Shown here: piece by piece, positions 7,237 to 61,000 of the stretch
How the letters are laid out: every line of letters begins with the position of its first letter
How positions within the stretch are numbered: position 1 is the first letter of the stretch
Assembly (NCBI GenBank): GCA_018389105.1
Contig: JACATO010000069.1
Coordinates: 250,501 to 314,500, forward strand
Direction: 5' to 3'
Source: Nautilus pompilius
Taxonomy: Eukaryota; Mollusca; Cephalopoda; Nautilida; Nautilidae
Length of the DNA stretch: 64,000 nt
Program-made: the position numbers and the translations under genes
Notes under the pieces: generated by a model
What the model was told of the DNA's origin: nothing
The model's database searches: none
Seen by the model: only the letters and a program-made list of their open reading frames with translations

Positions 7237-7460
7237 TTGGCCTCTCTCTCTCTTTCTCTCTCTACTGATGTGTCTTTCTCTCTCTGTGTACTGACGTCAT
7301 CTCTCTCTGTGTGTACTGACGTCATCTGTCTCTCTCTCTGTGTGTACTGACATCATCTCTCTCTCTGTGTGTACTGACGTCATCTCTCTCTCTGTGTGTA
7401 CTGACGTCATCTTTCTCTGTGTGTACTGACGTCATCTGTCTCTCTCTCTCTCTCTCTCTG
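7237..7460. repeat. CT/GT-rich array with five TGACGTCA palindromes
   Basis: Units of the form CTCTCTGTGTGTACTGACGT with CA following repeat with spacings of about 25-31 bases. TGACGTCA is perfect at 7292, 7317, 7375, 7402 and 7427; the copy at 7348 is mutated to TGACATCA. Read on the minus strand, the core ATGACGTCAGTACACA with GA runs is the same unit as in the array at 29.7 kb. Confidence 0.9.
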
Positions 7461-10970: not shown

Positions 10971-13142
10971 CTCTTCCTCGGTGCTCGCTGATAACTGCGC
11001 AGCCGTGTTGTTTTTGTCGTGGGTTGTTGTTGTTTTTTTAAAGTGAAAGCCACTGACCCGAGAACTCCCGCGAGCGAGCGTCACGCAGCACGCCGTCTAG
11101 CGGGTATAGCGCGCACGAGCAAAAGCTGCGGGTGGTTTTTCAGACGGGAGAGTTTATGGCGACGCCCCCGCGGAGAAGAGTAAAGCCGGGATGAGGCCGA
11201 TTCTGAAATGACCACGTCTCGACGAGAGACGCTTTACCCGAAGAAACATCGATCAGACAACAGATTAAACGCGAGAATGGAATTAGACCTGACACCTGGG
11301 CGGTCGTAGTATCCATGGGCGAGGGTTCCGTCTGAATGCGTGCCACGCGTGTCACGTGTCCGCCAGGGAGAGGCTGGGCTTCCGGCGGAGATTGCGCTGT
11401 TGCTATGCTGTGCCGGAAGCAGAGGAGAGCGGGTTATGACGTAATGAACAAAGCCACTCGAGCACTGGCCACAGCGGAACTTAAAAGTCCGGAATCACGG
11501 GGAATGCGGATAAGTTCCGCGAGTCAGGGCCGAAAGGGCAGGGTTCGGGTCAAAGGTTGCAGACCGTACCGCGCCTGCTGCTAAACAAACCGACCGGCGA
11601 TGTCTTCCGGCTTCTTTTTTTCTTCTTCCCGAAAGGCGGTAAAGGCTGATCCCTTCCAGCTACTACCACCCCGCCGCCGACCTGGGGAACCATCAGGCAA
11701 AACAATCCTGTCATGGCGTTTCTCCTGAATGCAGTTTTCTGTCGCATCTGCAGCAGTAGGCTGAACCCTCTCCCCCCCCCCAAACAACGACGATCGGAAA
11801 ACTCGACGGTGGCCTGACTTGCACTTACTTCCCTTGCGCGGGATGTGGTGGATGAGGAATGACCGCTAGATGGCGCCAGCAACTTTATCCTCTACCAGCC
11901 CCAACCATTCAGTCTACGTGGCATCAGCTATTTCCATACTTACATTTGTTTCCGGTAAAACATTGAAAACAACAAAAAACTATTACTATTATTATATTTT
12001 TTGCTCTCGTCTCTCATTCACCGCCGATTTAAGCACCAAAGGGTGGGGGAGTGGGGTGATGTGTGCTGCCTTAAGTCATCCCAGTCGTAGTCTTTCATCA
12101 TTAATTAGTGTTTTAAGTAAGCCCTTTTAGATCCAGACAAACACCCAACCCTTATAAAACGCACGCGCGCCTTTTACATTCTCGCAGTATTTAGTTTCAA
12201 GCAGAATCCCCTTTTTTCTTTAACGCGCCATCGAAAAACAGGGGCTTTTCGTGTCGGGTTTAGGTTTCCGGTAAAAAGTAGCAGCAGCGGGCAGCCAGCT
12301 ACACGATGAGATCTCCCCCTCGTAGTTCGCTCTAGAAGGGTTCGGGGAGAACGAACACAAACAGAATCGGGTTTGGCAAACATTGTTATTAGTTGGCAGT
12401 GAGTAACCCAGATGTTGTTGGTTTTGTTGTTGATAGTCAGCAGCCAACATAGCTCGCATACCCCCCTTTTTTTTCCAAAAAGAAATGACGAAACGAAGAG
12501 TGATGGTGGTATGGTTATAAGACCCGGCAGCGATCTATTATAGCCGGCTAATTCGTTACCATTAGTTCATACCAAGTTTCGAATATCGTAGAGTTGACTT
12601 GGCAATCTGCTCAAGCATTTCACTATATCTGGTTGTTCGTGTTGGTGGGGGGGGGGAGAAGAGGGAGGAAGCGAAACACGTGATGCTAGTGATGCTACAA
12701 ACAAACCGTATTGCTTCAAATTCCTTTCCAAATCCGGATTAGGGCAGCGTGAAGGAGTAGTTGGCCTATATTCCTTTCTAATTTCACTTTCGAAACAAAA
12801 AGGGCGCACTTGTGGGGAAGAATTGCTGTGTTAATTTTTAAAAAAGGGAAGGGTTATAATTCTCACCCATGCAACAATAAACGAGTATTTAAAACTTTAG
12901 AATTTCGATAAGACCCAATGATCACCCGGGGCAAGTGATCAGAACCAGTTCGGTATAGCGGCTCGGAATTGACCGATCAACTAATCAGCCACAGGTATAC
13001 ACGAATATGGCTGTAAGAAACCCCGCACACTTAAGCAAAATAATTTTAAAAATAATTTACTTACGAACTTTTGTCGCAAACCCCCCCCCCCAGGAAATAT
13101 CTTCATTTGTGAAAGAATGCGTTGCATTTTTCTGGATGGGAC
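10971..13142. other. No gene recognised
   Basis: CpG-rich around 11.0-11.9 kb, with poly-C and poly-T runs. Frames of 60-110 codons exist on both strands but overlap each other and lack any recognisable motif or splice signals. Confidence 0.55.
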
Positions 13143-14545
13143 TGTTCGCAACATCACCGATTGGACATCCTCGTGTAGTTTTGTGGGCGATCCAGGAAGA
13201 ACATCAAGGTCGCGACACGTAACCCTATTTTTGTGTCATCCCCGAGATACTCAGTAACCATTTGACCCTCTTTTTTTCTCTCTCCATGCTAGAGTCTTTA
13301 TGATGTCTCCAGAAAGTAAATTTAGAAGCCTTTACCATTATCCACCATTACTACACTGACAAAGCATTCCAGTCGGTACTTCTCAGATGGCAGGTAACTT
13401 ACCCATCTGAAATGGAAATAGTGTTAATCAAGCGTGGAAAGGAGATACTGATGGTGGATGGTTATTCCTAATATTCTGATAGAACGAGTGGCGACAAAGT
13501 ACAGAAGTTCTGGTGTTGTGAAGAATGAGAGAGCGGCAAAGCAAGAATCCACACAGATGACGAAAATGTGAGGCTGAAAATTGGCATACATCCTCAGGTG
13601 TTTCGGCTGCAAAGGTGGATGCTTTGAATGCAGTGATGACAAATATAAAGCGGTGCGCAGCAGAAAACACGGAAGCTGTGGCCCAGGTCAATAGTGAGAG
13701 CGCGGTTGGTTTGTCGTGAGCAGCTCAGATATCTCTTCCCAATTTCGCAGCAATGAAACACGCGGTGAGGAGGAAAGAAATGACGTCGATGCAGTTCCTC
13801 TGCTCCCAGACAATATTGAAACTCTTATTATACCGGAAAACTATAAGACCTTTGATCCGTGACTTTCTGTTGTTGAAAACCTTTTGATCGCTGGCAGTGG
13901 CCCTAATTCACGCAGGATACTACTTTTTGGCAGCCAACGGAGTCTACTGATATCAAAGGAATTGAAAACCTGATCTGTTGACAGAATGTTTCGACCTGCG
14001 CCACTATTATTTTCACAGCTGTAGATCATACTGACAGAAAGATTTGGAGGAGTTCATCCAGTATTTCATGCTTTGCTACCTGACAAGCAAAGGAATATAT
14101 ATGAAAAACTCTTCCAATTTATTAAACAACTGAACCTGAAGCTTCCCCAGACTCTGTTTCGTCTGATTTTGAAAATGCAGCATTCACTGCAATAAAGAAT
14201 ACCTTTCCTGGTGTGCATCTCAATGGAGGCTTTTTTCACCTTAATCAAAATATCAGAAAACATTTACACGAATTGCAGCTGTCCTTTGGGTATTACGACG
14301 ATGCTGGTTTTGCGTCGAGTGCAAAAATGATCACCGCAGTCACATTTGTACCTATCGCAGACTTGGACGAGACCATGGATAGACTGGCGGCGGAAGAACT
14401 GCAGCCACCGCTTACTCGGATCGAAGATGGTAAGCCGCTCTGTTCGCTGAAGAAATGAAAGACGTCCGACAGTTTTCCGCAGAAATGTGATCCTTGTACA
14501 ACAGGGTCCTCAACAGAGAAGACTGGACCAACAATCAGGCGGAGA
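13143..14545 (+). pseudogene. FLYWCH/MULE transposase pseudogene, left arm of inverted repeat
   Basis: The plus strand encodes a dead Mutator-like (MULE) transposase with an N-terminal FLYWCH zinc finger. MVDGYS, then a stop, then YSDRTSGDKVQKFWCCEE and a stop, then SGKARIHTDDENV covers the FLYWCH domain (13440-13580). GVHLNGGFFHLNQNIRKHLH (14210-14270) is the conserved MULE segment around the catalytic Glu region. The end reads DWTNNQAETTRRRIWEW (14520-14570). Several in-frame stops are visible. The whole 1.4 kb is repeated in inverted orientation at 16942-18348 with very few differences. A minus-strand open stretch at 13841-14029 (62 codons) is identical in protein sequence to that of the other arm; it is antisense to the transposase and probably not a gene. 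Confidence 0.8.
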
Positions 14546-16941
14546 CAACCCGTCGAAGGATATGGGAATGGCATGTCCAACAATGCCGAAAGTCATTGAT
14601 GGCCTCCGTAAAGTGCATCATGGGCGCGATATATATATATATTACGGACAGTTAGTGGCTGGTCACAACCCACCATAAAAATTGGTAAAAGATCGTGACG
14701 CAGATGAGCGGATATTAAAAATTGCCACAGATTATAACAGCAGGGACATTATAACATCTTCAAGGACTAGCAAACAATTACAGTATGGAGTAACATTTGC
14801 CACTTAGATTTACTATATTAGATTATTGTATTAACTTAAATTTGCATAAAATTAATTTTAAAATAAAATGAATTCTGTTACATTGAAATTCATTTTATTT
14901 ATTTAAATTTAGACATATTTCCACGATTTTAGAAATGATTCCAGAAACGTGTCTGGGCACTGGCACACTAAAGGTATAGTGCACAGTAACCCTCGTGGCG
15001 AACTGTCCTAGACCCCTGTGGAAGAGACAAAAGGAGCTTCAGGTTTCTCCCTGGAAACCAGAAGCCCTGACATGAATCTGAATGATAGCCAACTGCAAGA
15101 AACATGATCTCCCCTTAGGTCCGTGACAGATCCGCATAAAAGAGAACTCTGGCAACGGTAACACATATTTTCGCCTACTTTTAATGATCGAAATTATAAT
15201 ATTATACGGTATTGGAAAAAAGAAAATTATAAATTTGAAATGTGAAAATATGAAGGAAAATTACGGAATACCTTTTATTATTTTCTCGACGTCTTTAACT
15301 GACTTAAAATCCCGAAGAAAATCTAGTATTTTTGTGTTGAAGCTCTTTGTCTTACTCAAAGAGTTGAAGGTCACTGCCAGGCGAGAATACAATTTGCCGA
15401 TGAAAGATATTGATGCTTTTTTATTCCAAGAATACCGAACGCCTTTCAATAATTAAGCTTCGTTGTTTGGTTGCCATTTAATCTTTTTCGTCCTGATATA
15501 AGCTCACTCAGTTTCATTGATATTCATTTGGGAACTTTGCGCAGGACAAGTTATGCATTGTAGTACGGCACCAGTCCTTATTGGTAAATGTGATTTGACA
15601 ACATCTGCTGTACGCTCTGAATCCTAGTCATGCGGGAAAGATAGAGCTGTTTTCAATTATCCGAGTTTCAAACGGAGCTGCATAATGTATAAGAACCTGC
15701 TTATATATTGGGAGGTAAAGGGGCGTCGACCTTGCAAAATATCTTCAACTCTGTTTGCGGAAGATACAAATTCCAAATCTTGATTCTGTCCAGCTTCATG
15801 CTTCACGAAAAAATCTGTGTACATCGACTTTTGTACCTTCGCCGCTGAACAAACTGTTGTTTACTCTTTTCAAATATCACAAATATTGATTCATCTATAA
15901 ACAAAGATCTCTGCATTCCAATGCTTCTCATCTCATTGTTTATGTTCTGATGCTCACCTCATCATTCTTCCCTTCTCAGAAATTTTCATTTTAAACCGCA
16001 ACACGCCAAAACCACTTTATGATAATTTATTTCCTACTGTTTCTGGCTTTATAATTGCGTTCCTTCTTGCAAGATGTGGCATCTTCACCTGGTTGTCGTC
16101 TGTCGCCCAATAAACAGAACCGTAGATACTCAGCATCATTCAACTTTTGGAAAATCTTATCAAATATTTATGTATAACAATTGGCAAAGCTCTGGGTTTA
16201 GTGGCAATTTTCCTCATAGAATATCCCTCAGTAATCCAGGAAATTCTCTGCACATTTATCACCAGGCATTTTTCTTCTGGGAGTATGTCTGCTTTCATTA
16301 TATTAGCTTTAAGGTGATATGACTGTGGAGAAGTCCCTTATTGGTCACCTAAATGCAAATCACAAGATAAAATAACGGATCACGTGACGGAAAAGTGTAA
16401 AGTAGATTTGCATGCATTCTAGTCTTTTAATTTACTGTTATTTGCTTTTCTTTGTTGTTTCCGATGTACATACAGGATTTAAAATAAGTGTAGACACACC
16501 AATATAACTTGCAAATAAAGGCAGAAAAAATATTCATTTACTATCCATTTTACATACTATAAGTGTAGGTTTAATGATGAATCTTAATCATGGGTGATAT
16601 TTAAAACAACTGTTTAGTCACGTGGTCAAAACTTACTGATCTCAATTTATATTACGTGACATTTAAATGTTAATACGGCACGAAAAAAAACCAAAATCTA
16701 TTTTAAGGACTCTCTCTTTAATGACGTCATATCCGCCTATCTAATGACGTCGACTCTCTGTAATGACGTCATATCCGTCTATATAATGACGTCAAATCTC
16801 TGTAACGACGTCATCTCTCTCTCTCGTTCACTTACTCTAGTTTTCTTTTGTCATGTGTATTTCGGTAAATGTGAGCAGTGCGATAGTTCTTACACACGAA
16901 GAACAGTCCGTTGACTGTACGGAAAAGGGAAGATGTATTTC
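14546..16941. other. Spacer of the inverted repeat, no gene seen
   Basis: An AT-rich 2.4-kb stretch. Its left 60 bases continue the left-arm transposase (RRRIWEWHVQQC). It holds a (TA)5 run at 14632, and at its right end the TGACGTCA cluster at 16722-16794 described separately. The longest open frame (15184-15456) has no recognisable features. Confidence 0.6.
16715..16826. repeat. Small TGACGTCA cluster
   Basis: Three perfect TGACGTCA sites (16722, 16764, 16787) and two one-base variants (16744, 16806) lie in about 90 bases, in units resembling TAATGACGTCATATCCG and ending in a (CT)n run. The flanks differ from the GTAC-containing unit of the other two arrays. Confidence 0.85.
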
Positions 16942-18348
16942 TCTGCCTGATTGTTGGTCCAGTCTTCTCTGTTGAGGACCCTGTTGTACAAGGACCACAT
17001 TTCTGGGGAAAAATGTCGGACGTCTTCAATTTCTTCAGGGAAATGGGCGGCTTACATAATCATCTTCGATCCAAGCAAGCAGTGGCTGCAGTTCTTCCGC
17101 CGCCAGTCTATCCATGGCCTCATCCAAGTCTGCGATAGGTACAAATGTGACTGCGGTGATCATTTTTGCACTCGACGCAAAACCAGCATCGTCGTAATAC
17201 CCAAAGGACAGCTGCAATTCGTGTAAATGTTTTCTGATATTTTGATTAAGATGAAAAAACTCTCCATTGAGATGCACACCAGGAAAGGTATTCTTTATTG
17301 CAGTGAATGCTGCATTTTCAAAATCAGACGAAACAGAGTCTGGGGAAACTTCAGGTTCAGTTGTTTAATAAATTGGAAGAGTTTCTCATATGTATTCCTT
17401 TGCTTGTCAGGTAGCAAAGTATGAAATACTGGATGAACTCCTCCAAATCTTTCTGTCAGTATGATCTACAGCTGTGAAAATAATAGTGGCGCAGGTCGAA
17501 ACATTCTGTCAACAGATCAGGTTTTCAATTCCTTTGATATCAGTAGACTCCGTTGGCTGCCAAAAAGTAGTATCCTGCGTGAATTAGGGCCACTGCCAGC
17601 GATCAAAAGGTTTTCAACAACAGAAAGTCACGGATCAAAGGTCTTATAGTTTTCCGGTATAATAAGAGTTTCAATATTGTCTGGGAGCAGAGGAACTGCA
17701 TCGACGTCATTTCTTTCCTCCTCACCGCGTGTTTCATTGCTGCGAAATTGGGCAGAGATATCTGAGCTGCTCACGACAAACCAACCGCGCTCTCACTATT
17801 GACCTGGGCCACAGCTTCCGTGTTTTCTGCTGCGCACCGCTTTATATTTGTCATCACTGCATTCAAAGCATCCACCTTTGCAGCCGAAACACCTGAGGAT
17901 GTATGCCAATTTTCAGCCTCACATTTTCGTCATCTGTGTGGATTCTTGCTTTGCCGCTCTCTCATTCTTCACAAACCCAGAACTTCTGTACTTTGTCGCC
18001 ACTCGTTCTATCAGAATATTAGGAATAACCATCCACCATCAGTATCTCCTTTCCACGCTTGATTAACACTATTTCCATTTCAGATGGGTAAGTTACCTGC
18101 CATCTGAGAAGTACCGACTGGAATGTTTTGTCAGTGTAGTGGGTGGATAATGGTAAAGGCTTCTAAATTTACTTTCTGGAGGCATCATAAAGACTCTAGC
18201 ATGGAGAGAGAAAAAAAGAGGGTCAAATGGTTACTGAGTATCTCGGGGATGACACAAAAATAAGGTTACGTGTCGCGACCTTGATGTTCTTCCTGGATCG
18301 CCCACAAAACTACACGAGGATGTCCAACCGGTGATGGTGCGAACAATA
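16942..18348 (-). pseudogene. FLYWCH/MULE transposase pseudogene, right arm of inverted repeat
   Basis: This is the reverse-complement copy of 13143-14545. It keeps the FLYWCH stretch with FWVCEE (near 17985) and MHLNGEFFHLNQNIRKHLHE (near 17270). The two in-frame stops in the FLYWCH region are shared with the left arm. The homology stops abruptly at both ends: outside GCGAACAAT (18348), and inside at the NQAE codons near 16945, where the left copy continues with more transposase codons and this copy does not. Confidence 0.8.
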
Positions 18349-26025: not shown

Positions 26026-27353
26026 ATTAATTTCAGTTTACAATCTTTATGTTAAGAGTTCCTCCTCCGCTTCCCCATTTGGTCTTTCTTCTCTTTTCTT
26101 TTCACTGATACAAGTTGTAACATAAATATGAGTTTGTGTCGATCCTTTTTATAAAGATGAAACTTGAACCATTTATGAAGTATTTCTGGTTGTTGGTTAA
26201 CAGACATCGTAGATATTTAAAAAAAAAAAAAAAGGCAACCTAAATAGAAATCTGAAAAAAAATACTAAATGGCATCTGGTGAGACATATTTTGTATGAAT
26301 AGCAAATCTCAACAGGTAAGCATTAACTGGAGCTAAAATACGTACGCACACACAACACACACACACACACACACTCACCCTCCTATTACGTTAAATAATG
26401 AAAACTGGCGGTAAAGTATAATTGATAGAGACACTAATGCTAGAAGGGTGGAGAAATAACGAAATGATGACGTCACAACGGGTCAGCGCGGGCAGCCGTC
26501 GAGAAGAGATTTTCAGAGAGAGAAAACTGGCAATGTGCTGAATCCATTTAATGCCTTCTATGACTCTAGCACAAATCGCAGCTTAGCGCAGTCAATCACG
26601 CTACTAATGAGTCACTGAATACTTACCCGGACCAAGTCGTTTGTTCTTCTACGAACGAGGACGTCACCATGTTTCTGCAAAGTTCGCTGTAGCACAGGAC
26701 GACGTCTTGCAATTGCAACTTGAAAGAGTGAGGTGTTGAGAATGAGCTACTCCAGGTACTGGTAGACTATCCAACCACAATGTAGACAGACGCTATCATA
26801 AATCAGGATAAAGTTATCCTCAGTGACAACAACATACAGCTTCACGTAAACACCAAAGATTTCATCCCTGCAGCCTAAATCTTTTATGGCGCTCTTTCGG
26901 AAAACACGGAAGTCAGACTTACCATTCGAGCTAGTCTGTTGTCACACCACCATTGAGCCATCCCCACAGTCATGTTCGGCAACGCTGGCATCATGTGATA
27001 GACATATCTTTTACGACAATGAGCCGTTATTAAAGGAATACTAAGCAGTTTGTTTTCCTGTTTTTTTTTTTTTTTAAAGAATTTATGCAAATGCTTCGTC
27101 AATTTTGCTTGATTTCCATAAGTGAAAATCTTCAGGAAGTCCACGTTTCGGCAGTCGGTAGCTTAACCTGATACTGTTATTACTTTACTACTGTGTGCAT
27201 GCACATCATTTCTGACTGAAAAGGTAACTATATTTGAAAAGGCATGAGATTGGCCATAGGGGAACCGAAATTCAAATTGCCCCCACACCTTTTCCTTTTG
27301 TCCTCTTTCTCTCAAAAAGAACGAATGACAACTAGCTTATTGTTATTCACGTA
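26026..27353. other. No gene recognised
   Basis: Contains the CA microsatellite, a 14-base A run at 26218, one isolated TGACGTCA at 26467, and a 15-base T run at 27061. Nothing protein-like was found. Confidence 0.5.
26345..26375. repeat. (CA)n microsatellite
   Basis: CA repeats with one CAA interruption. Confidence 0.9.
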
Positions 27354-28652
27354 CGAGGTCTGTTGAAAAAGTATCCGAGAGTAGGCTTGGAAAAAAAATT
27401 ACGTACTTGGTGGGGTTCAATTGCTAATCCCTTTCTAAGTAGGCCCCTTGTGCCTCCACACACAGCCCAGCGATCCTTCCACTATTCTAAGCACGTCTGG
27501 AATGCTTCTTCCGGAAGGGCTCTCAGCTCCGCCGTCGCATTTCGCATGATATCCTCTCGGCTCTCAAAGCGGGAGCCTTTCAGTGACATCTTTATTTTTG
27601 GGAACAACCAGAAGTCAGAAGGAGTCATGTCCGGAGAGTAGGGAGCCTGGCGAATGAGCGAAATGCCTTTCTTTGCCAAAAAACCCTTGGATCAGCTGCG
27701 ACGAATGAGCCGAGGCATTGTCATGATGCAGCTGCCAGTTTTGCGAGGCCCACAGATCCAGCCACTTGCGCCGAACTGCATCATGAAGACATCGGAGGAC
27801 TTCCTGATAGTACTCCTTTGTAACTGTTTGTCCTTCTGGTGCGTATTCGTGATTCTCAACGCCTCGGTAGTCGAAGGAAACAGTCAGCATCACCTTGATT
27901 TTTCTCCGGACCTTGGCGATGTTGGGTGCTTCCACTGTGATGACTGAGCTTTGGTTTCCGGGTCGTACCCGTCTACCCACATCTCATCTCCAGTTATCGC
28001 GGTATTCTGGAACAAAGGATCCTGTTGGCAATATTCAGCAGGTCCTGTGCAACCTCAAGACGAAGTTGTTGTTGTTCCTGAGAAAGCAGCTTGGGCACAA
28101 ATTTCGCTGCCACTCTGTCAAGCCCAAATCCTCCTTTAAAATTGCATGTGCAGAATCTTTACTGATCCCAACCTCCACCAATTTCCTGCACCGTCAAACG
28201 ACGATCCTCCATTATCAAGGTCCGCACTTTCTCGATAACAACTGCATTGCGGCTTGTTGACGGCCTCCAGGAATGCTGGTCATTCTCCGCGGCCACCTTT
28301 GAACCTGTTGTACCATTCCTTTATTTAGGTAACACCCATGGCATTGTCACCAAAAGCCTGTTGAATTTTGCGAATTGTTTCCGCTTGGGTATCTCCAAGC
28401 GTTTGGCAAAACTTGATGCAAGATTGTTGCTCCACACGTTCCGTCATCACGGGCAAAATGGAAATGCGACGAGTAAGTGGTACAGAACCTCACACACTGG
28501 CTACCTGACAGCGACTGACGCATCCAGAAAGCCCGCCAAAAACCACGCATGCGCACGAAGGCATGTGGCTCCACTATGCACACTTTTGCCTCCCTAACAT
28601 CATTACTTCCCACGGGAGAAAATAAAGTCGGATACTTTTTCGACAGACCTCG
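27354..28652 (-). mobile_element. Mariner element, full length (1.3 kb), inactive
   Basis: Ends CGAGGTCTGTTGAAAAAGTA and its inverted copy at 28627-28652 (one mismatch in about 25) are flanked by TA. The minus strand carries all parts of a mariner transposase in order: an N-terminal region broken by stops (LIMEDRRLTVQEIGGSLG near 28210), ITGDEMWVDGYDPET (first Asp, near 27980), NWQLHHDNASAHSSQ (second Asp, near 27740) and SPDMTPSDFWLFP (third Asp, near 27620). The pattern is consistent with the DD34D catalytic triad. A frameshift in the A run near 27675 and several stops disable it. The first and last segments remain open over 65-121 codons. Confidence 0.9.
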
Positions 28653-29703
28653 TATATTATCAATTTGATATATAATTATTACCATCCAGCCAAACAGGCA
28701 GGTAATTTAGCTACAGAAACAGTTTAGCTAAACAGATAAAATATAATGAATAAGTTTCAACTTCATCTTAAATTACTGTTTGACGTCGTTGATTTTTTTT
28801 CTCACTAATCGATCAAATATTTCGTGATATATTACATTTTTCATGAACACTTTTTCATTTTACGATAATTTTCCTTGGTTCTTATCCTCAACAACAATAA
28901 CAACAACAACAACAAATATCTTTAGATAGTTTTCTGATCTTGTTCGTGCCAATGCAGCACGCGGCAGTCCGTGAGCAAGCAGCTTCTTCAGGTAAAAATA
29001 CTGATCTAAAATCTGTCCTTGTGATCTATTCGCCATTATAACAGAAGCTGGATTAACGGATACTGCCATCTTTTCAACATAAAGGACAAACTTGTTTCAT
29101 TCTCTGCGCCAGATCAATTCGTGGAAAAATAACTCGCTCATCTTTGTTACTGCCAGTTAAAATCTCAGTATCTATAAAGTTATCGGGAGATCCTTCACAA
29201 TCAGCCTCCTTTCATTACATTCTTTGTACATACGCAAATCTGACCTCATCAAACACGCAATGACGTCAGAACTTGATGCCAGGAGCATTACCAAAAGACA
29301 ACTAGCTTTATACATATTAGATAGCAACTGTCGTTTTATCAGCACAGAAATGATGTCAGGACGTATCAAGGTGTTAAGATACTGTCGAGTGCAGTCGCTA
29401 TGACGACGGCAGCTGTAGAATATATATCAGCTTGCCAAGTTAACTCTATAGATTTTGAAAACCAAGGTTTTCTGTTTGGCGGAACTGATTTTTCTCTTAT
29501 TCGAATTTTATTTTATTTTATATTTTAGTCAAATTTGTTTATTTTAAGAAAATTAAATATATTTAAAACAAAACAATTTTTTAAGCAAAACTCTTACCTA
29601 TTATATAGGAATCGGCTTTAAATTAGCCTATAATTTTTTTTTAAAAAATTGCAGTTTTTCTTTTTGTTTATACTAAAATTAGAAGATAGATAAGTTTATA
29701 TCG

Positions 29704-29708
<5 letters not shown>
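28653..29708. other. No gene recognised
   Basis: AT-rich sequence between the mariner element and the TGACGTCA array. Short frames only. Confidence 0.5.
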
Positions 29709-29745
<37 letters not shown>

Positions 29746-30341
29746 TGACGTCAGTACGAGAACGAGAGAGAGATGTGACGTCAGTACACAGAGAGAGATG
29801 ACGTCAGTACGAGAACGAGAGCGAGAGAGAGATATGACGTCAGTACGAGAACAAGAGAGAGAGAGATGTGACGTCAGTACACAGAGAGGGATGACGTCAG
29901 TACGAGAACGAGAGAGAGATGTGACGTCAGTACGAGAACGAGAGCGAGAGCGAGAGAGAGATATGACGTCAGTACGAGAACAAGAGAGAGAGAGATGTGA
30001 CGTCAGTACACAGAGAGGGATGACGTCAGTACGAGAACGAGAGAGAGATGTGACGTCAGTACACAGAGAGAGATGACGTCAGTACGAGAACGAGAGCGAG
30101 AGCGAGAGAGAGATATGACGTCAGTACGAGAACAAGAGAGAGAGATGTGACGTCAGTACACAGAGAGGGATGACGTCAGTACGAGAACGAGAGAGAGATG
30201 TGACGTCAGTACACAGAGAGAGATGACGTCAGTACGAGAACGAGAGCGAGAGCGAGAGAGAGATATGACGTCAGTACGAGAACAAGAGAGAGAGATGTGA
30301 CGTCAGTACACAGAGAGAGATGACGTCAGCACGAGAACGGG

Positions 30342-30377
<36 letters not shown>
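29709..30377. repeat. GA-rich tandem array with 20 perfect TGACGTCA palindromes
   Basis: A (GA)n tract opens the array at 29709-29742 and another closes it at 30341-30376. Between them TGACGTCA occurs perfectly at 29746, 29776, 29799, 29835, 29869, 29892, 29922, 29964, 29998, 30021, 30051, 30074, 30116, 30148, 30171, 30201, 30224, 30266, 30298 and 30321. Nearly all are followed by GTAC. Spacings cycle as 30, 23, 42, 32-34, 23 bases, giving an approximately 150-base higher-order unit. TGACGTCA is the consensus binding site of CREB/ATF bZIP dimers; function here is inference. The apparent 92-codon frame inside the array is a by-product of the repeat. Confidence 0.95.
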
Positions 30378-30379
<2 letters not shown>

Positions 30380-31349
30380 ATGTACCAGATCGCCATTACG
30401 TAGTCGGTGCAACAATCGGTTCTGTTTTCGACTTTAGTACTAGGGACGTTTAAAAGAATCCGGCGATTCTATTTTTAGCTGGGTTTCATAGTACTAAGTG
30501 TCCAGGATGACTCCTCCTATGACTTCGTACCGTTATTACTAACGGACTATTAATGATACGTTCGGTGTTCCATTCGTTGTCGGCAGGTGGCGCGTTTAGA
30601 TGGAAACCATGGCGGACTGTGAAAACCGGATTTGTGGTGATGGCTCACCGAGACAAAGTCGGTCGTGGCAGTACAGTGAAAGTTCAGGGAAAAGTTCAGT
30701 GCCCATGTCCCCCCCCCACCAACAAACTTTAACTCCATTTACCGGTTTGTTTGGCAATTTCAAAACCAAGGCAGCAACGTGTAGACCGACCAAACGTCGT
30801 CGCCGCCCGGCTGCCCGCGCACCAATGAAACAGTGGAAGACATTCACCGTAGGGCGACTGACGGTCCGCCGACCCGTCAGTGAACGGACACCGATGTGTA
30901 AAGGACAAAAAATCTGGAAGATTCTTCAAAAGGACTTTAAAAAAAATTTTTTTTCCGTGCAAAATTTACGCTATGCTTTTTGGTGAAGAAAACAGTTGGA
31001 CCTTTGAGTCGATGGAAACCGATTCTTCCATTCTCGACAACAGGCCCGGGCCTTGATCCGTGCGACCTCTTTTATAGGAATACCTTAAGGAGAGCGAGTC
31101 TACCAGATTCGCTCCTAGGACAACGACCTGGAATCAGCAATCCTGGATCTATTAGCCTGGATATTTTGGGAAAAGTTATGGACAACACATGCACACCGAT
31201 ACGCAGGATATAGATAGATCCATTGTTCCAAAATTTAAAAATTGTACAAAATGAGAGTAAGTAGAATAAGGACTGACGAATGGAAATGTTAATTAAATAA
31301 ACAGCATGGGTATAAATTTTAAACGTATTTACTGTATTTGTCACTGAAC
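30378..31349. other. No gene recognised
   Basis: A 128-codon plus-strand frame (30600-30986) includes a basic patch TKRRRRPAARAP but has no homologue that I recognise, and a minus-strand frame of similar length overlaps it. Left uncalled. Confidence 0.45.
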
Positions 31350-36291: not shown

Positions 36292-37544
36292 TTAGGTTGT
36301 TACAAAAGTTTTGTTGGATTTTTTACCGCAACAACAAGACTTCATATTGTTGCTGAACAGGAAGTTTATTAATCAAAGTAAGTTCCATTACAATTAATAT
36401 ACTTCTGCCCAGGAGTTACAAGCGCATTTATACCATTTTGAAAAAAATCTGGATTTCTGGAGTCAATAAACTTTTGGAAAGTAGTTTCAATTGCTGCTTA
36501 GTTGGAGGATGATTTCATACGGAGTAAGCTGTTGAGGTGTTTGAAAAGGTGGTAGTCTGTGGGAGAAAGGTCTGGTGAATAGGCTGGGTGAGGGAGAACT
36601 TCGTACCCCAATGTGTTCAGTTTCTGAAGAGTCACTTTTGCAACATGAGCACAAGTAGGATTGGGCCTCTTAGATTTACCAGTGCTGGCTGTCATTGGGA
36701 GAATTTCTGATGAACGTTTAATTCACAACAGTAACTTTCAGCTGTGATGCTTTTGCCAGGTTGCAAGAAGTTATCATGGATGACACCAGTTTCAGACCAC
36801 CAGACAGAGACCATGACCTTCTTTGGGTGGAGGCTGGGTTTTGGAATGTGGTTAGGTGCCTTGTCTCTGTCGAACCACTGTGCTGATCATTTGTGACTAT
36901 CGTAAAGGATTCATTTTTCATCACACGTAATGATTTGGTCAAGAAATGGGTCAATTTTGTTTCTTATGACAAGCAAAGAGCAGATCCCCATTGTTGGTCA
37001 TTCAACTCATGAGGCACCTACCTGTCAAGTCTTTTCACCTTGCCGATTGCATCAAGATGCCGGATACAGCTGCAGTGCTTACGTCAAACTCTCCAGCAAT
37101 TTCTCGCACTGTTTTTCTTAGATCGGCTTCAATTGAGGCTTTCAGACGGTCGTCATCACAGTTGGAAAGATGTCCACTTTGTTCCTTATCTCTGAGCCTC
37201 ACATCTCCTGATCGAAACTTTGCAAACCATCGTTGTACTGTGCGCTCATTTGCTGTCCTTGCCCCATGTTTTCTTAATGTTAAGAGTTGCCTCACTCGCT
37301 TTGTGGCCTGGTTTGAACTTGTGAAGCAAAATGGCACAAAAAACTTTTCTATCCATGCTTCACTCAGAGCCCTGAAACAAATATCCATTTTATGATTTTT
37401 AAAAAAGTAGGTTTTGCATAATGTATGCCAAAGCACAATACAAAACGATATATAACTTATCTACATACACCCTCACAAGCATGCAGAAAATGAACCCCAA
37501 ATTAACATAATATAAAAACTGACAAAACCTTTGTAATGACCTAT
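36292..37544 (-). mobile_element. Mariner element related to the SETMAR/Hsmar1 group, inactive
   Basis: Imperfect terminal repeats (TTAGGTTGTTACAAAAGTTT at the left; inverted, decayed copy ending 37544) with TA flanks enclose about 1,250 bases, the normal mariner length. The minus strand encodes an N-terminal helix-turn-helix (TVQRWFAKFRSGD, KTVREIAGEFDVSTAAVS) near 37400-37040. The catalytic C-terminus, LGYEVLPHPAYSPDLSPTDY, lies near 36630-36550. The middle is broken by stops and frameshifts. The third catalytic Asp is present in the SPTDY motif. It lies downstream of the ZMYND8 3' end in the same orientation. Confidence 0.88.
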
Positions 37545-46000: not shown

Positions 46001-49000
46001 GTTGTTGTAGCAATTATTATTATTAATGCTTTAGGAATTTTCTAAAGCAGCATCTGAGATAAATTCATTATAATTATTTGTTTTCACAAGAAATAGTTTC
46101 ATAAATTTAGATTGTCTAATATTTTGCTTGGATAAAATTTCATCAAATAAAATTGGTAAATTTAATCTAAGAGTTAAACTAAACAATAATTTGCTGATTT
46201 TGCTCTTAACTAAATAAAATTTTCATCATTTGTCCACTTTTTTTAACATAATGCTGCCTGACTTATAGTCTGTAACTCACCCACTGTTTCTTCTTTGCTT
46301 GCTCTACAACTTTTTGCTTTTCCACCTCACACTGCTGCTGCACATCTGCAATGATGCGTTGTTTCTCTATTTCCCAACAGTCTCTCATCTCAGCCAGTGT
46401 TAGATCTGGAAGCATTGTATACAAAATTTCAAAACAAAGAGCTGGCTGATGATAATAAAAAGCCAATTAATATCAAGATTAGGTAGGTAAAAAGATGCAC
46501 AATACCATACACTCTTGATAACATCAGTATAGAGAAACAATATGGACATAGATTTTGACATTCAAATCAATTAAGTAACTTCTTCAACAAAACTATAATT
46601 ATAAAATTCTGAGAGTTTTGTGTAAACTGCAGCTGATACTTATTTCAACATAGTTGGTATAGGACACATTACATAAATACATGCACCCAAAAACATACAC
46701 TACATATGTTATATCTCTATACATAATAATAAAAATAACAGGCTTTAAGTGGTAAGTTGCACATTTTTGTCAGAAACTCAACCTTACAACATGTTTCACT
46801 GGTAAACTAATAGAAAGTAAATACTTTAAAACAGTATCTATAATAATGATTGGTGAATCTATACAATTTAATATAAGATTTTAAATGGATCTCAGGTTTA
46901 AAAGAAAAAGAAATGTTTTAAAACTTTTTTTACAGAATTAATTTTCATTTTGAAAAGTATAAATTTTGTAATGAAAAAGTGAAATTTAATCTCAAGTTAA
47001 TGTCATATACATACAAAAGCACAAAAGCAATTAGTGAAATAAACATTAACAATTTTAGCTCTTGATTTTTCTTTGTGATTAGATTCAGCATAATTCAATG
47101 GTAACATCATTTTAAAAAAGTTAACGCTGCTTAAAACAATAAAACAAATTTTAAAATAAAATTTAATATTTTTCTGTATTTAGAAACTTCTTTTAAAAAA
47201 TAAGAAATATGGAATCTTAAAAATTTTATTTCCTTAATTCTGCTCACATTTCTAATGTATTCGGAAGTTGTACAGCTGGAAGGAAATGCATCTGATACAA
47301 AAGAAAAACTGACTTAGCCAATCTGTGCTGAACACATTGGGTTATATGTTTTGTTTGTTTGTGTGTGTGTGTGTCTCTCTCTCTCTCTCTTAGTGAAGCC
47401 TGAAATAAACCAACAATATCTTGTTGCAAACTACAGAATTCACAGCCAGATAAACTGATCCCAAGATACCAGTGGTATCATATCTCGAGCAGGAAAACTC
47501 CCACTAAAACTCTTCTGAGAATAAATGGGTAGAAAGCACTGTGCCCAGAAGAAACTAGTAGAGAAAAGTAATAGAAAGCAATCATCAATGACAATCAGGT
47601 GCCAGTCCAGACCCAACAAGGAACCAGAGTATAGCTACAACCAAGACAAATGAGCACACTACACACTCTGTCAACCATACATCCACAACATCTTCAAAAA
47701 CAAAAAGGAAAAAGAGAAACAGGCTGGCAATTTAACCATTTAAAGAAAAATATTTTGAGCAAGCAAATATGTAATTTTTGTTTCACACAAAATGATAAAA
47801 AAATTTGTACGAATGCTTACAGAAGTCATGCAAAATGAATGAATTTTGTTTTACATTTGGTTTATTCTGTGTTTTTCCAAACTTACAACTATTGCTGTAG
47901 TCATAAAAACTAAAACAAACAACAACAGTTACCAAGGAATATTAAAGATAGATACAGAAATTATTAGTATTATTAGCAGTGAATTATAAAAGGCATATTT
48001 GTAATGAGAGAAATCTCAATGATAAGAGATTTATAGTACCTACCCATATTGTGCTTCATTTCTGATAACTCTTGCTGATGACTCCACCGTAATTTCTCCA
48101 ATTCTAAGTGATGGTGTTTCACAACAGCCTATAAAACATCAAGCGTTCAATTGCTGCTCAGATTAATATTTAAATGATGATATTATAAAATACTTGAATT
48201 AAAATGTATTAATTTTCAAGATCAAGCCACAGTAAGAAAACAAAACTAAAAAAATGTGTCTGTTTTGTTGAGTGGTAATATAATTTTATAAATCAGTATC
48301 AAGAAATGTCAAAAATACAGTACTTGCTGAATCTCTGCACTCATCATATCATTGTACAGCTCTCTGAAAGTTCCCTGAATAGATGACACCAACTGAAAAA
48401 TAAATCCATACAATGTTCAATGTTATAAGAGACAAAGTTGTAATAAAAAATCTCAGCTTAATTTTACACATTTGTTTTTTTCACATTTATTACTAATGAA
48501 ATTTTTTATTTTGTAGAATTTTTAAAATTATGGAAATTTCTATTATCTAAAATATTAACTATTAATCTGTATTATCTCAATAATTGCAATGTGAAGATGA
48601 TCATTTTTATACAGTAGAAATGAATTAGTCTAGAATACACCAAAAAACAATGATCTCTACACTACAATTTTTTCTACAGAACCAGAGCAAAACATGAATT
48701 ACCCTACTCAAATGTTAAAAAGATTCACATTGCATGCACCAAGACAATAATTAAGACAAGTCATAAATGTTAATGCTAATAATAAAGTATTTTCACTTCC
48801 ATAATAGAGTGCGTGTCGAGGGAGGGAGAGAAAAAAAATGAGAATATTAATTTCAGATGGCATTAGATGAAATAAGTGAGTTTCCTCATGGTCTTCACTT
48901 TTGAGAATATTAAAAAATAAGGACATGTTCTTTGTCCCTTTTTATTTTCAAAATGTCACATCTATCAGAACTTCAACAATAATCAACAATATCTTACATT

Positions 49001-58000: not shown

Positions 58001-61000
58001 GAATATCTTTAGCAATGATGAAAAGACAAACATACGATGTATCTGAAAGACCTGAGAGTAAGAGCAAACTTTAGAAGATTTAAGGCATGACACTCTGCAC
58101 TAACAGGTTTTAAGAAAATTATTAAATGACAATCCAAAAGAGATTTTTTTCCAATCTTTTTTAAAGGATAAATACATAAAGCTAATTTTTAAAGATATTT
58201 TACATTTTATTTTTAAATGTAAATGGCTTACTACCACATGTCACTAAACATACCGGTCATGAGCACCAAAGAACCGCACATCCACTTGCCCTTTCACCTC
58301 TCGTAATGCCTGACAAACAAAAGAAAGGTAATAGTTTAACAGCTGCACGTGGTTAGCTAACTTAGTAAAGCAGCATTCTAGAAAAAAAGGTTTTTCGTAA
58401 TTATTAACCAGCCTACAAGAACCAAACCATAGTCAAACCTTACCTAATAACAGCACTTTCAATTTGTGACATGAAAGTTTTTAAAAATTGTATCAAATCC
58501 TAAGAAATAAAACTTATCGGAAATAATTTCAGCCCATTTAGTGGTGAGCACATAATTATTTGAAATCAATCATGTATTCAAAGAATGTAATTCAAACAAA
58601 TTTTTTTTTGTTTTTCTAAATTGGTGAAATCTCTATCATTTTTCTCAGAATAATTTATCCAGAAGCACTGAGGACACTTACACAGGTGGTCAGCCCAAAC
58701 CATTCTTCCCAAAAGAAAGATATCAAAGGGAATTATTAAATTTTAAGATTTTCAGCTTTTATGAAAAGTCAAATAAAAGCCCCATAAAAAGAAAAAAAAA
58801 AAAAACAGTAGTGAAAAAGAGTAAGTTATTATATGTATACTGTTGATTAGGTCAAATGTTCAAAATGCAGAGGAGTCAAAAAGCTGGAATTCTTCTGTAA
58901 ATCTACCTCTGAAGGTTTAAGTCAGGGAGAATGAAGAAATCTAGTAAGGACTTTTGTCTGCTTAAGTTGGTAGTGCTGGCCCCTCATTATGCAGGATAAC
59001 GCTCCCTAGCCAGGGTAGTTTCCCTTACAAAGACTGGTGAATTAAAAAAAAAACAAAAAAAAAATCATCTTTATCCTTGTAATAACTAAACTAAGTAACC
59101 ATACTAATGAAAATTTCCAGTTTTGTTTATGATCTTATTTAAGAAAGAACTGAAATGAAGAAAAAAAAAATAAGAGAGAAGGGTCATACTATGAGCAAAA
59201 TATAATTACAGAAAAATCACTATTCAGAAAAGCCTGTTGTTTTATTCACGTATCTTGGGAAAGTACTGGAACAAACCCAAAATAAATAGTGTTACTTTTC
59301 CATGTGATCCCCATTTCTGCTGACATACTTTTCTCACTAAGGTTTCCTGCTGGCCAAACCCACTGCAAAAAATTGATCATCAAACAGTAGATTCACCACA
59401 ATACTAGTGTTTTATATTTTAAAAAAATTTAGAAATTTACTTACCTTGGCAGGCCAGTATGGGTAACCTTTTAATTTTGCCCAAACTAAAGTGTGTGGTA
59501 TTGACTAAATTTTAAAAAAGAAAGAAAATAATTGATAAGTTTTTAATATTTATCAGCAGCTATCATCAAACTTATACACACAAAAACACATCCACTCACA
59601 TAAACAGTATATAAAAATAAAGAAATGACTTACACATGGTTCACAGAACCAGTCATCAGTTTTCCTAACTGAAGAGTTAATGTAACAGTCAGGACAAACT
59701 TCTATCTCACTCATCTGTAAACAAAAAAAAATTTACAAATAATTCATCTGAGAGGGTGGTATAAGTTCATTTGCCAACTACATCAATTATTAAATTCATA
59801 CATAGGGCCTTCTCACAGGTTAATAGAACAAACAAACAAAAATCTAGATGCTAAAATTCCAATGGCATGTGTATATACCTTTTATTTGTTATGGAAACAG
59901 TTGATAATAGAATAACTACATATCCCTCAATATCAATCTATTAGAAAAGCTAACTTTCATCATGAACTAAAGAGATAGGACAATCATTCTGTTAAATTTT
60001 TAATGTTTGAAACAATATTCTTGTTCCCTATTATGGTCGGATGTCAGATTATTAACACAAACATTATGCTGTAATGCGACAAAATGTATACTTTCTCTAT
60101 TTTACCTTTAGTTCCTATTACTCAAAAGACTGCATTATACAAGGTTCCAAATAGTCTAATGAATTACTCCACAATATTATCTAAGTTAGCCAATTTTTGA
60201 TTAAAAATTAGTAACATCATTTTATCAATGGCTCCACTTAAATTGAAAGAAAGTGTACCTCTTGCTTGCAGATCTTTAAAACCATTTTGGCACTTTGAGT
60301 TAGCTTGTGATGTGCTGTAAAAAATAAAGCAATAGTTATGACTGCTCAGGCTGTTCAACAGCACTAAAAAACAAACAAAGGAAAACAGCCTGTTTTTCAG
60401 CCTCTTCTAACATAAAAAATATTGAGCAGAAATGTACCAGTTAAAAAAATACAAGCAAAAGTAACCTAAAATAAGTATGCTAGTAAAAATATTTTAAATA
60501 ACTCACTGAAAATAGAGCTACTGGACTTCAGGCAATTCACATGATGTGTATGTTAGGGTAATGACAAAAAAAAATTTTATTACCCTGCAGTGGGATTCGA
60601 TGAACTTTTTGGTACGAATTAAGAATATGCTGATCATTCTTCTGAATTTTGAAAAAAGTTCCCCCAGGGTTAGACTTAAAGTTTTTAATATAGTGTTTTT
60701 TTTAATTTTCCAATTTTCCAAAACATGAGAGTGATTTGATTTAAAGATTTAAAAACAAAGTAAAAAAATCAAAGAAAGACTATTTCTTTTCAAAAAAGTA
60801 ACAAATTGTACAATACTACTTATTAAAATAATTAGAAGTTGTTTTTTGAAACAAATTTTATATTTAAATACTTATCAGTTTTACAAGTTTCCCTTAATTC
60901 TTCCATTAGTTTAATTCCCCTTTAAGCAATAATATTTGATCGCGGTATATCAATAACAGAATTTTCTTGGGACCAGTGAGTTTTGAAGCGTTTTTCAGCA

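Follow-up and report, generated by a model that had tools for sequence, protein, structure and literature searches.

The 1.688 family of Drosophila consists of many short euchromatic arrays with array-specific variants, in which related arrays lie near each other, and its unit is much longer than the one described here. GGAA microsatellites serve as neo-enhancers for EWS-FLI1, and the major immediate-early enhancer of human cytomegalovirus is a compact element with repeated consensus CREs; function has been shown in both cases. GA tracts are unstable on their own. On the Drosophila X chromosome, expansion of GA dinucleotides has been linked with CLAMP binding and dosage compensation (PMC4945028), and microsatellite families with similar flanking regions have been described in the silkworm (PMC7043130). 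The heptamer ATGACGT is needed for the M26/CRE hotspot of S. pombe, together with Atf1–Pcr1, and ATGACGTCAT creates a hotspot in S. cerevisiae (PMC9775316, PMC3534124). The locus described here, an array of the CRE octamer TGACGTCA embedded in GA tracts, resembles each of these systems in part.

Organization of the array and its window

The window, that is, the whole 64-kb stretch of DNA that was analyzed, contains the following octamer-bearing features, with coordinates counted from its first base.

29709..30377, plus strand (purine strand): array 1, 20 TGACGTCA units with GA linkers and GA tracts at both ends
29708..29743, plus strand: (GA)18 tract to the left of array 1, from TRF
29740..29862, plus strand: higher-order repeat copy 1 of array 1, units 1–4, spacings 30-23-36-34
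29863..29991, plus strand: higher-order repeat copy 2, units 5–8; unit 7 is composite, its left half being that of a 23-bp unit and its right half that of a 42-bp unit
29992..30141, plus strand: higher-order repeat copy 3, units 9–13, 150 bp, same sequence as copy 4
30142..30291, plus strand: higher-order repeat copy 4, units 14–18, 150 bp, same sequence as copy 3
30341..30377, plus strand: GA tract to the right of array 1, from TRF
7262..7445, minus strand: array 2, unit GATGACGTCAGTACACACAGAGAGA, array 1 family in opposite orientation
16712..16820, minus strand: array 3, related units with TGACGTCATTA
26468..26475, no strand assigned: lone TGACGTCA
29261..29268, no strand assigned: lone TGACGTCA

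All 20 octamers of array 1 are perfect and span 583 bases inclusive (29746–30328). The first-pass annotation had called this density far above chance, and dinucleotide-shuffled windows agree, with a mean of 0.54 and a maximum of 2 matches to TGACGTCA against 30 in the real window. Successive octamers are spaced 30-23-36-34-23-30-42-34-23-30-23-42-32-23-30-23-42-32-23. Within this series, the block 30-23-42-32-23 recurs exactly, from 30021 to 30171 to 30321, and sums to 150; TRF reports 2.9 copies of period 150 with 97% matches, and a run of 183 bases matches itself perfectly at lag 150, which bears out the proposed higher-order period of about 150 bases. Higher-order repeat copies 3 and 4 show no difference over 150 bp. 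Copy 2 lacks one 23-bp unit, and the composite unit 7 would be the product expected of a crossover inside the shared core. Array 1 is thus composed of about five unit types ordered as a higher-order repeat, so that its 20 octamers represent about five lineages rather than 20 independent sites.

The description of the octamer as kept amid varying linkers was right about the octamer but drew the kept block too narrowly, since TGACGTCAGTAC is unchanged in 19 of the 20 units and the last unit carries GCAC. Substitutions affect 0 of 160 octamer bases versus 1 of 80 bases in the adjoining GTAC (Fisher p 0.33). Eleven units have A and nine have G immediately 5′ of the octamer. As a unit for the array, ATGACGTCAGTAC had been suggested; it matches ten of the 20 units, while the other ten differ. 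A coding repeat was considered and rejected because the long open frames that run through array 1 arise from GA tracts without stop codons. An Rfam search of the whole window at gathering thresholds gave no match to an RNA gene.

Five octamers of array 2 are intact, a further copy reads TGATGTCA on the minus strand, and another is badly decayed. In array 3, three of five octamers are intact, with ~70% similarity to stretches of array 1. Both arrays have their purine strand on the minus strand. CpG observed/expected, computed in 2-kb steps, is 0.77–1.17 up to 36 kb and drops sharply to 0.10–0.40 from there to 64 kb, which looks like mosaic gene-body methylation. The CpG-normal part contains all 30 octamers of the window, hence all three arrays; the CpG-poor part has a minus-strand exon that resembles ZMYND8 (ZMYND8_CC, E 1.5e-15). 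This coiled-coil exon (46266–46466) marks the nearest identified gene to array 1, ~16 kb off. Closer to array 1 lies an open frame at 30600–30983, of interest for the idea that the array is the promoter of a downstream gene, for which no Pfam family was found.

The window has several further features. A 1.4-kb inverted repeat (13143–14545 and 16940–18345, 97.3% identity) has its second copy starting ~120 bp from array 3 and probably represents two copies of a mobile element. In a mariner-type remnant at 27352–28654, the terminal inverted repeats measure 27 bp and are 96% identical, and the minus strand encodes a partial Transposase_1 domain; another mariner-type fragment, at 37038–37460 on the minus strand in the CpG-poor half, has an HTH domain of the Mos1 type (PF17906). 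At 60922–62538 (minus strand), several open frames resemble one coding unit, perhaps a transposase; two pieces of these frames gave no match in Pfam.

Abundance, context and relatedness of the arrays

Array 1 is not unique but one of very many repeat blocks of GA and TGACGTCA in the genome. In the host assembly (727,640,739 bp, 2,558 contigs), TGACGTCA occurs 93,914 times versus 19,528 for its reversal, an approximately tenfold excess over the ~9,400 copies expected from composition, as extrapolated from contig C1. The genome scan for the unit proposed in the first-pass annotation gave 27,590 copies of ATGACGTCAGTAC versus 70 of the reversed control, a reversal without CpG, and tandem head-to-tail units occur at many loci. 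Positions 1–200000 of C1, an atypical stretch with about five times the mean octamer density of the genome, contain 136 octamers versus 2.6 expected under a first-order model; 123 of these fall in 12 clusters of at least two, all near GA/CT tracts. Among its 13 single octamers, two (124610 and 129528) are repeat units, and five of the other 11 read GTGACGTCAC. These 11 non-repeat octamers also exceed the 2.6 expected and may be ordinary promoter CREs. A separate observation concerns C1:725000–725800, where octamers abut directly at two places (TGACGTCATGACGTCA). In a sample of 1.5-kb stretches at fixed coordinates (19 chosen, 15 usable, four contigs being too short), octamers were present in three, two of which are arrays; all three are CpG-normal, and the four CpG-poor stretches contain none.

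The association with GA is seen from both directions. Starting from tracts of at least six repeats, TGACGTCA lies within 150 bp of 18 of 49 GA/CT loci, compared with 1 of 21 for CA/GT and 2 of 18 for AT. Conversely, in the window and C1:1–200000, a GA/CT tract of at least four repeats occurs within 150 bp of all 15 multi-octamer clusters, 4 of 15 single octamers and 12–14% of random windows.

Arrays in C1:1–200000 sit in CpG-normal DNA, and the central CpG of the octamer in such arrays is probably unmethylated. CpG-poor arrays also exist: flanking values are 0.14–0.28 both at C1:497.9 kb, with a single intact unit, and at C1:843 kb, where 2 of 10 units are intact. None of the seven units is intact at C1:993 kb, where the surrounding stretch has a CpG observed/expected of 0.42. 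The CpG is kept in 6 of 18 units of three CpG-poor arrays (one consisting of just one intact unit) versus 302 of 376 in 29 others, a comparison in which units are not independent and for which a per-array test gives p 0.28. A tie between octamer loss and CpG-poor surroundings is, therefore, only suggestive.

For a carrier, we compared the flanks of 17 sites (34 flanks of 770 bp), comprising 15 arrays and two single units in GA context, and found no flank-to-flank match at E 1e-3. Two flanks matched non-flank sequence: the right flank at C1:11639 did so through leftover array sequence, and that of array 3 through the 1.4-kb repeat. The right flank of array 1 (30378–30610) matched itself, plus a 41–45-bp piece at three other places. 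The shared flanks or ends of a transposon-borne repeat were thus absent among the sampled sites, and features of a dispersed minisatellite were found: tandem units at many loci, array-specific variants with in-place homogenization and, at the 17 sites, carrier-free flanks.

Unit variants are common mainly to neighboring loci. The array 1 linker variant GTACGAGAACGAGAGCGAGAG has 55 copies, which are distributed over 23 loci and 11 contigs, seven of the loci being on one contig and four on another. Pairs of these loci share a contig in 31 of 253 cases versus at most 0.36 expected under uniform placement, an expectation that is too low because array density is uneven, so that the contrast is overstated by an unquantified factor. 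Among 24 arrays of at least three units on C1, k-mer sharing declines with distance (Mantel rho −0.39, p 0.001). Sharing of unit k-mers is 0.25 below 20 kb, 0.31 at 20–100 kb, 0.26 at 100–300 kb and 0.16 beyond, with 0.105 between contigs. Sharing is low among the three arrays of the window (0.05, 0.20 and 0.04) and, on C1, lower below 20 kb than at 20–100 kb. Most movement of units thus seems to cover short distances, although relatedness does not fall off smoothly. Of the two options in the first-pass annotation, recent expansion of array 1 from a CRE-containing unit is supported by the identical higher-order copies, the crossover-like unit and the presence of the linker variant at 23 loci only.

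Similar patterns were sought in other genomes and in the literature. A single copy of the 14-mer occurs in each of 53 IMG/VR stretches, and GA or CT tracts of at least six repeats are absent from all of these loci. Triple-octamer patterns occur in 24 viral stretches and at least 119 prokaryotic genome stretches; among the 226 triples in these 143 loci, one linker has three GA/CT-type repeats and none resembles the array family. String searches of the literature did not find TGACGTCAGTAC or GTACTGACGTCA or any description of the array unit. TGACGTCATTAC and GTAATGACGTCA occur in one paper each, and one of three linker strings occurs in one duckweed paper. In one microsatellite paper, TGACGTCA appears in a primer, without the array unit, and it is absent from the main text of another.

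Retention and decay of the octamer

Broken octamers are widespread: 25 of the 31 sampled arrays of at least two units contain one or more, and 244 of 393 units are intact. In the array at C1:1035400–1036600, the octamer is intact in 3 of 19 units, ten units carry a single CpG transition and GTAC is kept in 16; this is a subarray amplified after CpG loss. An apparent strand bias of CpG changes (40 C-to-T versus 5 G-to-A among 218 distinct units) was discarded, as it shrank to 11 versus 6 arrays when counted per array.

We expressed relative decay as the array-weighted ratio of GTAC to octamer. This ratio is 1.39 (0.90–2.25) for the 31 arrays of at least two units, 1.66 (1.12–2.61) for 29 arrays of at least three and 1.43 (1.00–2.19) for 25 arrays of at least five. 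Leaving out the octamer CpG, the values become 1.59 (0.95–2.64), 2.07 (1.39–3.20) and 1.86 (1.26–2.93), respectively. An earlier version that included single chance matches (62/63 groups) gave 1.15 (0.78–1.65) and was replaced by the one restricted to arrays of at least two units. Counted per array, GTAC is more decayed in 15 of the 31 and the octamer in 12, with four ties. Decay at T10 (0.083) and A11 (0.046) is similar to the octamer base mean (0.079).

Genome-wide, single-change variants of the 27,590 exact copies number 4,192 at C4 (15.2%), 3,475 at G5 (12.6%) and 2,287 at C7 (8.3%). The number rises to 9,867 (35.8%) at G9, just outside the octamer. G9 is the one flank base counted genome-wide, and although the difference fits some retention of the octamer, this base also distinguishes subfamilies (for example TTAC and CTAC). 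Among 214 octamer spacings of up to 80 bp, which are not independent, no helical phase was seen (R 0.045 at 10.5 bp).

A comparison of octamer and linker divergence, which the first-pass annotation had put forward as a check, thus cuts both ways: non-CpG octamer positions decay at about half the GTAC rate in arrays of at least three units, but most arrays contain broken octamers. Octamers mutate, perhaps at about half the GTAC rate, and some retention is possible. Selection may act on the octamer, although the data do not prove it, and for most copies it would be mild at most.

Origin of the arrays and related systems

Array 1 is probably one locus of a very large, dispersed and carrier-free minisatellite family that is anchored in GA, grows in place and seeds nearby GA tracts, with the CRE mainly a passenger. 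Direct support comes from genome-wide abundance, GA association, unshared flanks at the sampled sites, local relatedness of variants and the in-place higher-order repeat. The family unit would be approximately (GA)n-(TA)TGACGTCAGTACAGAGAGA, with a shorter form TGACGTCAGGAGAGATA, seated in GA/CT microsatellites. Within an array, units would increase in number through unequal exchange or replication slippage, with higher-order repeats and linker variants limited to few loci as the outcome. Units would also reach other GA tracts as copies, usually over no more than some hundred kilobases and without a carrier transposon, most likely through ectopic gene conversion or because repeat circles reinsert where GA homology exists. 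As part of the unit, TGACGTCA would be amplified along with it, and most octamer copies are probably without individual function and decaying.

The arrays might instead be selected cis-regulatory elements, acting as enhancers that respond to cAMP or stress, or as a sink on the scale of the genome by which free bZIP proteins of the CREB/ATF type are buffered, which we consider unlikely. The perfect consensus of TGACGTCA and its genome-wide excess would suit such a role, as would the location of the arrays in the window and C1:1–200000 in CpG-normal DNA, where the central CpG is probably unmethylated. The same applies to the lower variability of the tested octamer positions than of the tested flank base and to the slower decay of non-CpG octamer bases than of GTAC in arrays of at least three units. 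Yet most sampled arrays harbor broken octamers, one array lost most of them while keeping GTAC, and inside array 1 GTAC is conserved as well as the octamer. Octamer spacing has no 10.5-bp phase, although helical spacing is not required of all enhancers, and the nearest identified gene, ZMYND8-like, is ~16 kb away, with the open frame at 30600–30983 nearer. Quite unlikely, in our estimate, is a self-propagating CRE minisatellite in which ATF/CREB-type binding at unmethylated ATGACGTCA would open chromatin, attract break repair, lengthen arrays and seed neighboring GA tracts, making the ~94,000 CREs both a bZIP sink and recombination sites.

By analogy with yeast, the arrays could be ATF/CREB-type hotspots, at which a bZIP protein bound to ATGACGT would open chromatin and attract meiotic breaks; repair of these would lengthen arrays and place copies of units in nearby GA tracts. 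This heptamer is present in 11 of the 20 array 1 units and in the 27,590 13-mers, ATGACGT and ATGACGTCAT are active as yeast hotspots (PMC9775316, PMC3534124), and frequent break repair would give both in-place higher-order growth and short-range spread. We nevertheless judge this very unlikely: nine of the 20 units read GTGACGT and were amplified equally well, and the array at C1:1035.4 kb was amplified although most of its octamers are altered. GA tracts are also unstable by themselves. Still less probable is transposon cargo, with the array as an internal minisatellite of a Helitron-, DINE- or MITE-like element. Thousands of dispersed loci and the ~120 bp between array 3 and the repeat copy at 16940–18345 would be in keeping with it; however, the 34 flanks at 17 sites lack mutual similarity, the right flank of array 1 is unique except for the 41–45-bp piece at three places and the other 1.4-kb repeat copy has no octamer within 12500–16700. 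Least probable of all is a marking of chromosomes or domains, by analogy with the Drosophila X, in which a CLAMP- or GAF-like factor would bind GA tracts and arrays would help to label a chromosome or domain. It could draw on the link between GA expansion, CLAMP binding and X dosage compensation (PMC4945028) and on the differences in array density and unit variants between contigs, but it leaves the octamer unexplained.

If the GA-anchored minisatellite reading is true, tens of thousands of perfect bZIP sites with carrier-free short-range spread would offer a natural test of how dispersed satellites move and of whether repeats titrate or rewire a conserved transcription factor. The repeat blocks give the genome an unusual surplus of CRE binding sites. 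CRE motif scans in the host species will be dominated by repeats, and CREB/ATF ChIP peaks probably will be too.

Among known systems, the CLAMP-bound GA repeats (PMC4945028) likewise combine expanded GA tracts with transcription factor sites, and the M26/CRE motif of yeast, a bZIP-dependent hotspot heptamer, recurs as ATGACGT in 11 of the 20 array 1 units. The arrays differ from the former in interleaving a bZIP consensus and from the latter, a 7–10-bp motif, in being amplified. Insect microsatellites also fall into families in the silkworm (PMC7043130), but there the flanks are shared, whereas here the flanks sampled show no relationship to one another and loci have the repeat itself in common. 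Like the GGAA repeats of EWS-FLI1, array 1 is built of transcription factor sites; factor and motif are different, and it is for GGAA that function has been shown. The 1.688 family of Drosophila shares the many short dispersed arrays, the array-specific variants and the proximity of related arrays, whereas the family described here is anchored in GA tracts, bears CREs and has a different and much shorter unit. With the human cytomegalovirus enhancer, the arrays have in common several consensus CREs arranged as short direct repeats; that system is one compact viral enhancer, whereas here tens of thousands of sites are spread through a cellular genome.
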